A stretch of DNA of 64,000 nucleotides, taken from Pseudomonadales bacterium. Its GTDB lineage: Bacteria > Pseudomonadota > Gammaproteobacteria > Pseudomonadales > Azotimanducaceae. This document shows positions 2,632-41,187 of the stretch, in pieces. The stretch covers positions 1 to 64,000 of the forward strand of contig JALZVT010000012.1 in assembly GCA_023300545.1 (NCBI GenBank). Reading direction: 5' to 3'. Numbering within the stretch: the stretch's first letter is position 1; each line of letters opens with the position of its first letter. The translations under genes and the position numbers were made by a program. The notes under the pieces are model-generated. The model was not told where the DNA came from, did not search any database, and saw only the letters and a list, made by a program, of their open reading frames with translations.

Positions 2632-3063
2632 TTGAATGTAAAAAATGCCATTGAACCCAATGCCGAACAGCTTGCAGGTTTTATGCAGCCCGGGCCTGAT
2701 GGTCCTATATGCATGGTTAACCTGTTGAAATTTAAAGACAAGGCCGTGTATGAGGACGGGCGCGAGACCGATTTGACCGGCATACAGGCGTATGGCCTGT
2801 ACGCGCGCGAAGTTGTAAAGCTGATCGACGAAGTCGGTGGCAGTCCCAAGTTTGATGCAAATATTGAACGCCTGATGCTGGGTGAGGTAGAAGAGCTGTG
2901 GGACAAGATTGCTATTGTCATGTTCCCTTCTAGAGGGGCCATGCTGGAAATGCTGCAGAAGCCGAAAATGCAAGAGATTGGCCAGCATCGGGCGGCAGGT
3001 CTTGCAGGGCAGCTAAACATAGAAACGGCTGGTGCGGTTGGCGACTTGTTAGGTGCTCGATAG
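2632..3063 (+). CDS. DUF1330 domain protein
   Basis: A 143-aa cytoplasmic protein of the DUF1330 / dimeric alpha-beta barrel type, recognised by the segment PDGPICMVNLLKFKDKAVY near residue 24 and by the C-terminal part about residues 95-125 (MFPSRGAMLEML). The start is a TTG at 2632 supported by GAGG at 2620-2623, 8 bases upstream; no ATG lies in a better place. It follows the dehalogenase by 36 bases on the same strand and probably shares its transcript. DUF1330 proteins commonly sit beside catabolic enzymes, but no reaction is established, so function is unknown. Confidence 0.85.
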   Translation: MNVKNAIEPNAEQLAGFMQPGPDGPICMVNLLKFKDKAVYEDGRETDLTGIQAYGLYAREVVKLIDEVGGSPKFDANIERLMLGEVEELWDKIAIVMFPSRGAMLEMLQKPKMQEIGQHRAAGLAGQLNIETAGAVGDLLGAR

Positions 3064-3078
3064 AGCGGCGTCAATCGT

Positions 3079-3996
3079 CTAAGGCATGGGGGAGCCAAGG
3101 CTGATTAACCGATGGTAGTCAGTCTTGAGTTCGGCCTGTAACCAATCGGCAAACGCCTTGATTTGCGGCGTTGACTGATCCTTTTTTCGATAGACCAGTG
3201 TATAGCTGCCGCCGCTGATCAGGGGCGCATTCACCGGGTTGTGCAGCTGTTCGATGCCTGGGGTCTCCCAGATAAATGGCGCGAGTCCCTGCAAGACACC
3301 GGTGCCTCTGGACGCTGCTGTGATTGCACTCCCAATGGTATCGAGCGTCAGCAGTTTCTTGGGTGGCCAGGCGTCCACGCCTTGTTGGCGCAACCACCAC
3401 CGCCAGCCATCTGGACGTCCGCCATGAACGATTAGCGTTTGCTGCAACAGGCCTTTGGGAGTGAGTGTGCTGGCCAGTTCTGGGCTGCAAAGAGGCACGA
3501 CTTGCAGGTCGATTAGCTTTTTGTGGACGAGCCCTGGTTGACGTATGCGGGTATTGCGAATGCCGATATCGATGTTGTCTGTATCGAGGTCGGCAACTCG
3601 GTTTAACGTATCTAGTTCGATGTTTATACCGGGATGATTTGCCTCGAAGCTTGCGAGCTTTGGTAACAGCCAGGTATCAGTAAACAACGGCAATGCGCTG
3701 ATGCGCAGTGTGCGTTCGGTAAACTTGGCGCGAGCGCCTTGCAGTGAATCATCGATGGCCTGGAATTGTCGCTGCAGCTTTCGGCTTAGCCGAGCGCCGG
3801 CTGGTGTGATGCTCACTTGACGAGTGGTGCGTTCGAAGAGTCTGACGCCTAGCCAGTCTTCCAGTACTTTGATCTGATGACTGATCGCAGATGGGCTGAC
3901 ATGTAACTCACTGGCGGCCGCTTTGAAATTCTCGAGTCGGGCCGCGGTCGCAAAGGTTTTGAGTGTCTTAAACGATGGTAGACGCTGGCCAGTCAT
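3079..3996 (-). CDS. LysR-family transcriptional regulator
   Basis: A 305-aa regulator with the N-terminal winged helix-turn-helix (LPSFKTLKTFATAARLENF, then SPSAISHQIKVLE, residues about 5-60) and a periplasmic-binding-like effector domain (about 90-295, containing RISALPLFTDTWLLPKL). The spacing and the DIGIRNTRIRQPGL segment resemble the GcvA/AmpR group. The ATG at 3996 gives the usual family length; an upstream in-frame GTG at 4062 would add 22 residues that look non-family. It converges with the DUF1330 gene, is divergent from the alcohol dehydrogenase at 4153, and by the usual LysR arrangement probably controls that gene from the 156-base divergent region. Confidence 0.93.
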   Translation of the reverse strand: MTGQRLPSFKTLKTFATAARLENFKAAASELHVSPSAISHQIKVLEDWLGVRLFERTTRQVSITPAGARLSRKLQRQFQAIDDSLQGARAKFTERTLRISALPLFTDTWLLPKLASFEANHPGINIELDTLNRVADLDTDNIDIGIRNTRIRQPGLVHKKLIDLQVVPLCSPELASTLTPKGLLQQTLIVHGGRPDGWRWWLRQQGVDAWPPKKLLTLDTIGSAITAASRGTGVLQGLAPFIWETPGIEQLHNPVNAPLISGGSYTLVYRKKDQSTPQIKAFADWLQAELKTDYHRLISLGSPMP

Positions 3997-38693: not shown

Positions 38694-40028
38694 CTAGGGC
38701 GAGCTGGTGAGCTCGTTCATGACGACCAGCATCAGTGCGTGGTTCCAATCGTCGGTAATGACAAGTTGGGTGGGGCCGTGTTGGGCAATACCAAACGGCC
38801 GACCAAAAAAATAACCCGGCTCGTGCCCATAGTTCCAGTCGATCAACGTTTGAGCCTCCTCCCTTGGCAAGCCTTTGGCGTCGAGATTGTAGTAGACCGT
38901 CTTTCGACCCGAAGGTTGGTACCCATGGAGATTGATCAGCAGTTGCTGTGCGGTATAGGTCATTCCCAATGGCGCTGCATGCGCTGCTAGCAATATTTGC
39001 GGTGCCTGATAGCTGTCGCAGCTTGCTCCAGAGGTTGCGTACAGCGGTGTGAGTTGATTGTCTGAGTGGCAATAGGGCCAACCATAGTGAGCTTCTGGCG
39101 TTAACAAGTTCAACTCATCATGGGGCGAGCGCGCGCCATCGAGGCGGCTCAGGTCGATCTGATCCCACGCGTTGTCAGCTAGCCACACGTGTTGCGTTTT
39201 AGGGTCTGTTGTTATTGCCAGCGTGTCGCGCAGGCCGCGTGCCAGCAACCGGAAGTTGGGGGCAGGCGAACCATCGGGGCGTATTGCATATTCGCGAAGG
39301 ACAGCGGTTTTGTGCTGATCGGTGCGTGTTAGTCCGTTTTCGCTGCAGGGATATTGCACGCTAATAGCACCTGGGTCGCCGGCTTCACAGTGATCGGTCG
39401 CTGAAGGTATTGACACGTAGAGCGTGTTGGCGTGGATGTGTATTTGCGTCAGGTAATGCCAACCATGGGTAGGCAGATTGTGGATAACGGCCTCAAGTGT
39501 ATCTGCCGGCACTGCCGCATCCGGGTTGAATCGCCAAATCGTCGCAGGTGTGCTGACAAAGACAAAACGTTGGTTAGCCTGCTGCCAAACGCTGATGCCG
39601 TTGGGGTGACTAAGGTTATCTATGAGGAGCTTTTTGTCGAAGGTTGGGTGCGATTTGCTGTTGTGCGCACTGGTTTGTAGGTAGGTGAAAATGCGCCCCG
39701 ATTTTCTATTCGGTTGGGCGTTGAAGAGAGCGCTGCCCTTGTCAACGACCAGCAGCTGATCGCCGAGACTGACCACCCCGCGCGGGAACACCAACTTATC
39801 ATCGAGCAAAGCTATGCACTTCACCTGGTTAGCCTGGGCTGCGACCTTCACTCGCGGTGAACCGTTGCAACGACCCTGAGTAGGTGTTCCCGCAGCGTAA
39901 CTGGCTCGGGCATCAAAGCCGCTCGTTCGTGTCACGCTAGGCGGGTGATGACAACCCGCCAGTGTGAGTAGGCCTGCAAGCGTAAGTGCTGCGTGCCAAT
40001 GAAGGGTTGTCAGCGGGTTAGCGTCCAA
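38694..40028 (-). CDS. L-sorbosone dehydrogenase-like quinoprotein lipoprotein
   Basis: 444 aa. Lipobox LAGC at about residue 26 marks a lipoprotein. The rest is a six-bladed propeller of the soluble glucose/L-sorbosone dehydrogenase type: FPRGVVSLGDQLLVVD, SHPNGISVW, ARGLRDTLAITTDP, LADNAWDQIDLSRLDG, DELNLLTPEAHYGWPYCHSD and a C-terminal FGRPFGIAQ. These proteins bind PQQ and Ca2+ and oxidise sugars or aldehydes in the periplasm; PQQ use here is inferred. TTG start at 40028 lies inside the 3' end of the selenoprotein gene (11-base overlap), so the two are cotranscribed. Confidence 0.87.
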   Translation of the reverse strand: MDANPLTTLHWHAALTLAGLLTLAGCHHPPSVTRTSGFDARASYAAGTPTQGRCNGSPRVKVAAQANQVKCIALLDDKLVFPRGVVSLGDQLLVVDKGSALFNAQPNRKSGRIFTYLQTSAHNSKSHPTFDKKLLIDNLSHPNGISVWQQANQRFVFVSTPATIWRFNPDAAVPADTLEAVIHNLPTHGWHYLTQIHIHANTLYVSIPSATDHCEAGDPGAISVQYPCSENGLTRTDQHKTAVLREYAIRPDGSPAPNFRLLARGLRDTLAITTDPKTQHVWLADNAWDQIDLSRLDGARSPHDELNLLTPEAHYGWPYCHSDNQLTPLYATSGASCDSYQAPQILLAAHAAPLGMTYTAQQLLINLHGYQPSGRKTVYYNLDAKGLPREEAQTLIDWNYGHEPGYFFGRPFGIAQHGPTQLVITDDWNHALMLVVMNELTSSP

Positions 40029-41187
40029 GTGAACCTGCGCGTGCGACCTCGCGCAGAGATCGCAGAGAGGCTTTGACTCTGCTTAAGCGCCAGTTTGACG
40101 CGTTTTTGCTGATCGTGCCGCGAGCCAGTGACAGACCGGCGCGTGCCTTTGAGAGCGTCTGTAGCAGTTCGTCTCGCGAGGTATCGTCCGTTGCAGCGGC
40201 ATACTTGGCTTCCAGTTGTGCAACTCTTAAGAGACGTCGACTGAGGTCGCGCCCCGCGTCGAGTGCTTGCGCATTGTCTTGCAGGTAGAGCTTGTGGGTT
40301 AACCAGGCGGCGACACTCAGCAAGTCGAGCTGACTGGCTTTGGGGTGGTTTTCAATGAGGCGTTTGAAGGCGATCAATGCGTCATCGCTGCTTGCCGTTT
40401 TAAGCTGTGCATACACTTGCGTGACCTGCTGGGTGTCGATGTTGGTTGGTAGTGTGCTCACCTTTACCATCTCAAGGAGTGCTTGAAAATTGTTAGTTGG
40501 ATAGGCGACTGCAATTCTCGAACGTACGGACACTCGGTCGGTTTGCGGGTAGTTGCCTTGAACCGCGTCGATCGCATCGATGAGTTCGTTTGCTGTCGGT
40601 CGCCGGCGGGCGACCTTCCGATAGACGACCTCAGCATTTTCATCGACGAGGTACACCGCATGCAAGGCAAGCTCTTTGGTATCAGGGTTCTGTACGCCAA
40701 ATGCGCGAACGACGCGTTGCTCGGGGTCGCTTGCCAGTGTGAAGGAGAGCCCCAGTCGCTCAATCATTACGAGCGATGCCTGGGCTGCGTCTACTGATAT
40801 TGCGATGATGGACGTGTTGCGCGCTGCAAAACGTTCGACCTGACTCTGCAACTCGCCGAGTTGCACATTGCAGGCGGGTCACCAGTGGCCGCGGTAGAAA
40901 ATAATCACAACGGGTCCGGCCGCGCGCTGGGAGGCGAGTGAAACCGAGCCGCCGCCGGCCTGGGGCAGGGTGAAGTCGGCGACTCGATCACCGATACCCA
41001 GCGCATTGGGTGCGCTGCGGCTGCCGCCATAATCACTGCGAAGAATGTTGATGGCTTCGGGGCTATTGGAGGAAGGTTTGTAGAGAGGTACCTCTGCGCC
41101 AGCGGCTGTTGCGATGGCGGACAATGCGGCAACCAAAATCGCGCCGAGCAGCCAGGCAACCCACGGTCGAAAAAGTTTTGTCGTCAT
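40018..41187 (-). CDS. Exported redoxin (AhpC/TSA-like) selenoprotein with UxxC, read through in-frame UGA
   Basis: One 389-residue gene that conventional calling splits at a TGA (40879-40881). Before it the frame encodes a signal peptide from the ATG at 41187 (MTTKLFRPWVAWLLGAIL) and the redoxin start VADFTLPQAGGG, VVIIFYRGHW; right after it the same frame continues PACNVQLGELQSQVERF, IIAISVDAA and the rest of the thioredoxin fold. Family members have W-C-P-x-C here, so UGA replaces the first Cys, giving U103-P-A-C106. A hairpin of SECIS type follows the UGA. Residues about 230-389 are a helical extension. It probably acts as a periplasmic thiol peroxidase or reductase. Overlaps the quinoprotein gene by 11 bases. 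A nonsense mutation is the alternative, but both sides are intact. Confidence 0.85.
40847..40865 (-). promoter_or_regulatory. SECIS-like hairpin for selenocysteine insertion
   Basis: On the minus strand, TGCAACTC, loop GGC, GAGTTGCA: a perfect 8-bp stem. The loop begins 22 bases after the UGA at 40879, within the 16-37-base range for bacterial SECIS elements, and has G residues in the apical loop as SelB sites do. It lies within coding sequence. Confidence 0.7.

Follow-up and report, generated by a model that had tools for sequence, protein, structure and literature searches.

We report that a redoxin gene on the minus strand of contig JALZVT010000012.1, from a Pseudomonadales bacterium of the family Azotimanducaceae (assembly GCA_023300545.1), very probably encodes a selenoprotein in which an in-frame UGA at codon 103 is read as selenocysteine (Sec). 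The window that we analysed is positions 1 to 64,000 of that contig, 64,000 nucleotides in all, and window coordinates are used below. An earlier note on this DNA had proposed that two adjacent open reading frames (ORFs) form one selenoprotein gene with UxxC in place of CxxC. Comparison with related genomes strongly supports this reading, through a conserved TGA, a conserved hairpin, the selenocysteine machinery and apparent selection on the protein. The features on which the argument turns are as follows.

40018-41187, minus strand: predicted selenoprotein gene, 389 residues from the ATG at 41187 to the TAA stop at 40018-40020, with Sec at residue 103 and a match to PF00578
40879-40881, minus strand: in-frame TGA, predicted selenocysteine 103 and U of UxxC, a TGA in 16 of 16 full-length matches and in the truncated match L076
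40870-40872, minus strand: Cys106, sole Cys of the window protein and partner of Sec103 in UPAC
40847-40865, minus strand: selenocysteine insertion sequence (SECIS)-like hairpin, with a perfect 8-bp stem, the 3-base loop GGC and its first stem base the 14th past the UGA

The observation behind the proposal is real. Under translation table 11 the minus strand carries two adjacent ORFs, 41340-40879 and 40866-40018, in one frame, and when the TGA at 40881-40879 is taken as Sec the frame reads ...FYRGHWUPACNVQLGELQ... without any other stop or defect. The 389 codons give, as had been claimed, one thioredoxin-fold redoxin: the read-through protein matches Pfam PF00578 (AhpC-TSA, 98.9 bits, cut-off 26) and PF08534 (Redoxin, 72.6 bits, cut-off 26.6), and both matches span the TGA.

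A search of 206 genomes of the family found full-length matches (E<=2.6e-88) in 16, the window's own genome included, the other 15 being 47-59% identical to the window protein. All 16, from separate assemblies, have TGA at the same column, as does L076, a further match cut by a contig end; a sequencing error at this codon is therefore very unlikely. No further stop occurs in the matched stretch of 15 of the 16. Median ratios of nonsynonymous to synonymous substitution (dN/dS) are about 0.16 upstream of the UGA, 0.14 downstream and 0.27 in the C-terminal domain. Of 105 pairs, 47, 34 and 35 respectively had a finite dS and entered these medians, with L033 left out; the C-terminal alignment omits both L033, which has a TAA, and L076, which ends with its contig, and orthologue starts were chosen by a rule that takes the ATG closest to 97 codons ahead of the TGA. 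As far as such sequence comparison can tell, the gene is intact, with purifying selection acting both before and after the UGA, and the decayed frame that the earlier note named as evidence against its proposal did not appear among the homologues.

Order-wide, 4 of 244 genomes match at E<=1e-20, of which three belong to the window's own family, counting its own genome, and the fourth is a Cys relative; in a class sample only the own genome, 1 of 369, matches at E<=1e-30. The Sec position is occupied by Cys (WCPYC) in L021, a relative from outside the family, and an in-frame UGA conserved across species is thus accompanied by a Cys relative, the pattern expected of a selenoprotein. No Cys orthologue was seen in a genome_contigs scan that requires an exact short peptide or in genome samples that are partial. 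The first genome_contigs scan found no loci; the set of 19 loci comprises 15 of the family-search matches, L076, L080, L081 and L082, of which L081 and L082 were rejected as matches, being unrelated CPAC proteins. Hosts of the 15 matches and L076 are listed as uncultured Proteobacteria, Gammaproteobacteria and Pseudomonadales, one of them titled K189A clade, which includes HTCC2089. L080 is a second-copy fragment (near 3001-3147) in a K189A-clade genome, where FYRGHW-TGA-PACN is kept and the frame soon breaks off.

The bases that follow the UGA carry a signal of their own. A hairpin just downstream of UGA, with a G in a small apical loop, is a bacterial selenoprotein feature according to excerpts of PMC1088965, and the window gene has one. 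Its loop starts with GG in all 16 full-length matches, and its stem pairs bases 17-24 with 28-35 (numbered from the U of UGA), 127 of 128 cells being paired across the 16 sequences. Pair 21/31 covaries, as G-C in seven, A-U in six and G-U in three, and RNAalifold gives the same hairpin unprompted. We compared these values with a null that redraws the codons of each sequence 1000 times according to the synonymous usage of its own gene, so that the protein is kept and the relatedness of the sequences is not. The 127 summed pairs stand against a null mean of 89.6 and maximum of 103, and the summed energy of -183.4 against -66.7 (standard deviation 10.1). Codons under the hairpin are frozen (V108 as GTG and E112 as GAG in 16 of 16, L110 as CTC and Q114 as CAG in 15 of 16), while other conserved Val and Leu codons show at least four synonyms in most cases; third positions differ in a fraction of 0.65 of comparisons both upstream and downstream and of only 0.26 in codons 107-115. 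Judged by this conservation, the hairpin is a SECIS-like element. The hairpins of seven Sec paralogues, tested singly against the synonymous null, gave P values from 0.011 to 0.576, and single sequences therefore do not decide.

The genome also appears able to supply selenocysteine. The assembly (4.78 Mb, 177 contigs, 99.12% complete) holds all four of the genes for which the earlier note had suggested searching: selA (TIGR00474, 519.6 bits, cut-off 267.9), selB (TIGR00475, 389.3 bits, cut-off 242.25) and the gene for tRNA-Sec (selC, 70.3 bits, gathering score 47), clustered on one contig, and selD (TIGR00476, 246.9 bits, cut-off 125), fused to an oxidoreductase domain. With machinery, hairpin and conserved codon considered together, insertion of Sec at UGA 103 appears almost certain. 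The partner in the selD fusion (L011:1405-3600) is a pyridine nucleotide-disulfide oxidoreductase domain. The fusion scores 418 bits against TIGR04369 (oxidoreductase/SelD-related fusion), under the cut-off of 700, and excerpts of PMC2398784 describe an Ndh-SelD fusion found in ocean metagenomes.

The protein itself has three parts, with one further conserved residue of interest.

41095-41187, minus strand: N-terminal hydrophobic, signal-peptide-like segment, residues 1-31, recognised by inspection by eye, with a helix at 8-28 in the model
40540-41010, minus strand: redoxin domain, residues 60-216, with an AhpE/PrxQ-like fold by Pfam and model
40660-40662, minus strand: His176, invariant in 17 of 17 rows and aligned with an Arg of 2cx3
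40027-40491, minus strand: seven-helix C-terminal domain, residues 233-387, in the model

An AlphaFold2 model built from 17 sequences (mean predicted local distance difference test score, pLDDT, 88; predicted template modelling score, pTM, 0.72) places a redoxin domain before seven C-terminal helices, in agreement with the long helical extension described earlier. The redoxin model superposes on BcpB 5epf (Z 21.0, root-mean-square deviation (rmsd) 1.9, 150 aligned), AhpE 5id2_D (Z 21.0, rmsd 1.8, 151 aligned) and AhpE 4x0x_A (Z 20.9, rmsd 1.6, 149 residues). Modelled alone, the C-terminal domain reaches a mean pLDDT of 91.3 and a pTM of 0.82. At E<=0.1 any given Pfam family was matched in it by at most a single member of the 15, Foldseek gave no match at E<=0.001, and the best VIA-align result (Z 9.7, rmsd 6.8, 87 aligned) is within chance for helical bundles; the modelled domain would thus be without a clear relative in these searches, which does not in itself make it a new fold. 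The signal-peptide-like segment, assessed by eye, makes export probable. Beyond the first ~27 residues there is exactly one Sec (103) and one Cys (106), as UxxC, in all 16 sequences.

Several observations weigh against the selenoprotein reading or against parts of it. Six of the eight stem pairs are invariant, and the covariation evidence is one pair because those six never vary; L026 and L076 each have one broken stem pair. The earlier note was right about the perfect 8-bp stem from the 14th base and its G-rich loop. Folded alone, the window sequence is unremarkable, no better than shuffles (z -0.9); the support for the hairpin comes from comparison across species. Taken singly against the synonymous null, the sequences give P values of 0.006-0.109 for pairs, with relatedness unmodelled. 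Homologues with Cys at residue 103, suggested as a check, materialised in part: of three aligned stop-less relatives only L021 has Cys, L017 having Thr and L046 Ser. A later TAA in L033 removes most of its C-terminal domain, and G351, which carries the redoxin gene, has no SelA even at E 0.001; that genome is 96% complete in 520 contigs, and we read the absence as an assembly gap. Export was judged by eye only, and the substrate and activity are what we infer.

Could the TGA simply be a stop? A nonsense mutation or sequencing error that split a former redoxin gene would account for the two ORFs seen under table 11, and L033 does carry an extra TAA. This is nevertheless extremely improbable, because all 16 full-length matches, found in separate assemblies, share the TGA and because the median dN/dS is about 0.14 downstream and, for the C-terminal domain, 0.27. 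Only marginally less improbable would be a split redoxin of two polypeptides, with a stop at the UGA and a restart at the GTG at 40866, which begins the second ORF and is GTG in all 16. In L076, however, that codon is GTA, outside the common start codons, and reinitiation at codon 108 is therefore less likely; the same change breaks one stem pair. Moreover, no Shine-Dalgarno-like purine run precedes the GTG (by inspection), other codons under the hairpin are also frozen, and a split would separate W102 from P104-A105-C106. Reading of the UGA as Trp, or general readthrough, would fit a frame that is open with any residue at the TGA, but the genome encodes tRNA-Sec and the Sec machinery, the relative L021 carries Cys at this codon and the hairpin is conserved, and we give this reading next to no weight.

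If Sec is inserted, its role within the redoxin can be viewed in two ways. In the model that we prefer, SelB, guided by the hairpin 14 bases past the UGA, would bring Sec-tRNA(Sec) to codon 103, yielding a single 389-residue chain; the signal peptide would be removed and the redoxin domain would act in the periplasm. Its Sec103-Pro-Ala-Cys106 centre would hold the sole Sec and Cys left in the mature protein. The selenolate might attack a peroxide or disulfide substrate, Cys106 might resolve the product by forming a selenenylsulfide, and DsbD or another thiol donor of the periplasm might re-reduce the centre. The own genome encodes a DsbD transmembrane domain, a possible reductant. The helical C-terminal domain, we guess, would probably set partner binding or oligomer state. 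We rate the chances of an enzymatic activity of this kind as even. The other view, compatible with Sec insertion and on balance unlikely, is a peroxiredoxin-type peroxidase in which Cys106 is peroxidatic and Sec103 a tuner or resolver. It draws on the best fold matches, BcpB 5epf and AhpE 5id2_D (both at Z 21.0), and on a profile alignment to 2cx3 that pairs Cys106 with Cys, Sec103 with Ser and His176 with Arg, which we take to be the peroxidatic Cys, the Thr-or-Ser of TxxC and the catalytic Arg. Yet the catalytic motif of peroxiredoxins is PxxxTxxC...R, and of its four residues only Cys106 is kept, Arg99, Sec103 and His176 replacing Pro, Thr and Arg; the window protein thus lacks the motif.

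Among known proteins, the window protein resembles the AhpE/PrxQ (BCP) peroxiredoxins in fold (Z ~21) and in the position of Cys106, and differs in that Sec stands where they have Thr and His where they have Arg, and in its signal-peptide-like segment and C-terminal domain. ResA/TlpA proteins are exported and have a redox pair two residues apart after a Trp. The window protein shares the pair after Trp and, probably, export, and all 17 members match PRK03147 at E<=0.001; in contrast, its score is 46 bits against a cut-off of 170, and Sec replaces the first Cys. His176 is at what we presume to be the cis-Pro position of ResA/TlpA. Homology to the SelL-related redox protein model NF040769 is weak and covers the redoxin domain (46.9 bits, with 17 of 17 members matching at E<=0.001), far below the cut-off of 120, and the window protein has in addition the signal-peptide-like segment and helical domain. 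Selenoproteins of redoxin type are indeed known from marine bacteria, as the earlier note had stated: excerpts of the Global Ocean Sampling survey (PMC2398784), and of PMC1088965, describe Prx-like UxxC selenoproteins (Prx-like 1, pfam00578), and the window protein has both of their marks, a PF00578 score over the cut-off and UxxC (UPAC). The likeness to Prx-like 1 (pfam00578, UxxC, marine bacteria) is one of description, not of sequence, and according to the same excerpts the survey includes some Prx-type selenoproteins with fusions to unknown domains (PMC2398784), as here, where the C-terminal domain has neither Sec nor Cys. The Redoxin family protein in a table of PMC13188914, by its description there, is defined by the PF08534 model and UxxC, both matched by the window protein, and may be the same or a different family.

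The protein therefore belongs to a broadly known bacterial selenoprotein class, with an architecture that no listed NCBIfam model covers. All 16 NCBIfam models listed for the window protein score under their cut-offs, and a standard annotation pipeline would therefore be likely to call a pseudogene or two gene fragments. Published families were compared by description, and this exported architecture may already be among published sequences. Among the full-text literature matches listed, which general selenoprotein papers dominate, no title concerns selenoproteins of this clade, and we draw no inference of absence from this.

The surroundings of the gene are less telling. The ORF behind it, said earlier to encode a quinoprotein, is the following.

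38694-40028, minus strand: downstream ORF with an 11-base overlap with the redoxin gene, weakly GSDH-like, outside any conserved unit

The overlap exists, but the ORF scores 23.6 bits against Pfam GSDH, under the cut-off of 25. We compared ten genes of the window by tblastn with the loci that surround the other 15 matches (3.4-13.1 kb each) and clustered the neighbouring ORFs. Only the redoxin itself is common to all 16 loci, and in none of the other 15, several of them short, did we find the overlap. With the overlap seen in the window only and the GSDH name sub-threshold, we rejected a quinoprotein link, and the overlap appears incidental. Short-chain dehydrogenases lie near the redoxin gene in the window and at five of the 15 other loci, neighbours on which we do not build because the family is a common one.

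The gene is one of several of its kind in the genome, which has three more AhpC-TSA redoxins, each with one in-frame TGA in UxxC.

L015:766-1956, contig C174: Sec redoxin fused to a DsbD_N domain
L016:1285-1773, contig C39: AhpC-TSA redoxin with TGA in UxxC
L018:1348-2064, contig C50: AhpC-TSA redoxin with TGA in UxxC

At L038:2430-3206 a second redoxin with an in-frame TGA (FYRGFWUPPC) shares its locus with a VWUPPC redoxin. A coding-potential scan of 440,352 bases of the own genome, 20,000 of them counted twice (a stretch repeating part of the window), found 14,868 in-frame TGAs, of which 30 rows, or 27 distinct sites, are flanked on either side by sequence that looks coding in that frame. 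The window gene is the only UxxC-at-TGA site among these 27, which speaks against a chance arrangement. The selenoproteome may therefore be modest; the scan covered less than one tenth of the genome (~0.42 Mb), and genes with short flanks would escape it.

Use of selenocysteine appears widespread in the family. We found selA in 172 of 206 family genomes, in 121 of the 128 with completeness of 90% or more and contamination of 5% or less, and in 15 of the 16 that carry the redoxin gene; in the order-wide sample of 244 it occurs in 10 of 10 genomes of the own family versus 23 of 234 others. In the own family selA is close to fixed. The own genome also encodes haem-copper oxidase subunit I, and this near-fixation of selA stands against the rarity of selenoproteins in aerobes, which rarely retain them according to excerpts of a 2026 review (PMC13188914). 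We suggest, tentatively and at rather less than even odds, that the window protein is a lineage-restricted exported selenoenzyme with new chemistry, combining a peroxiredoxin-like fold, Sec for Thr, His for Arg and no Cys orthologue seen, and that it is one of several Sec redoxins in a marine gammaproteobacterial family in which Sec use is near-fixed despite aerobic metabolism. With its single U/C pair, it would be a clear-cut case in which to ask what an exported redoxin gains from Sec rather than Cys.
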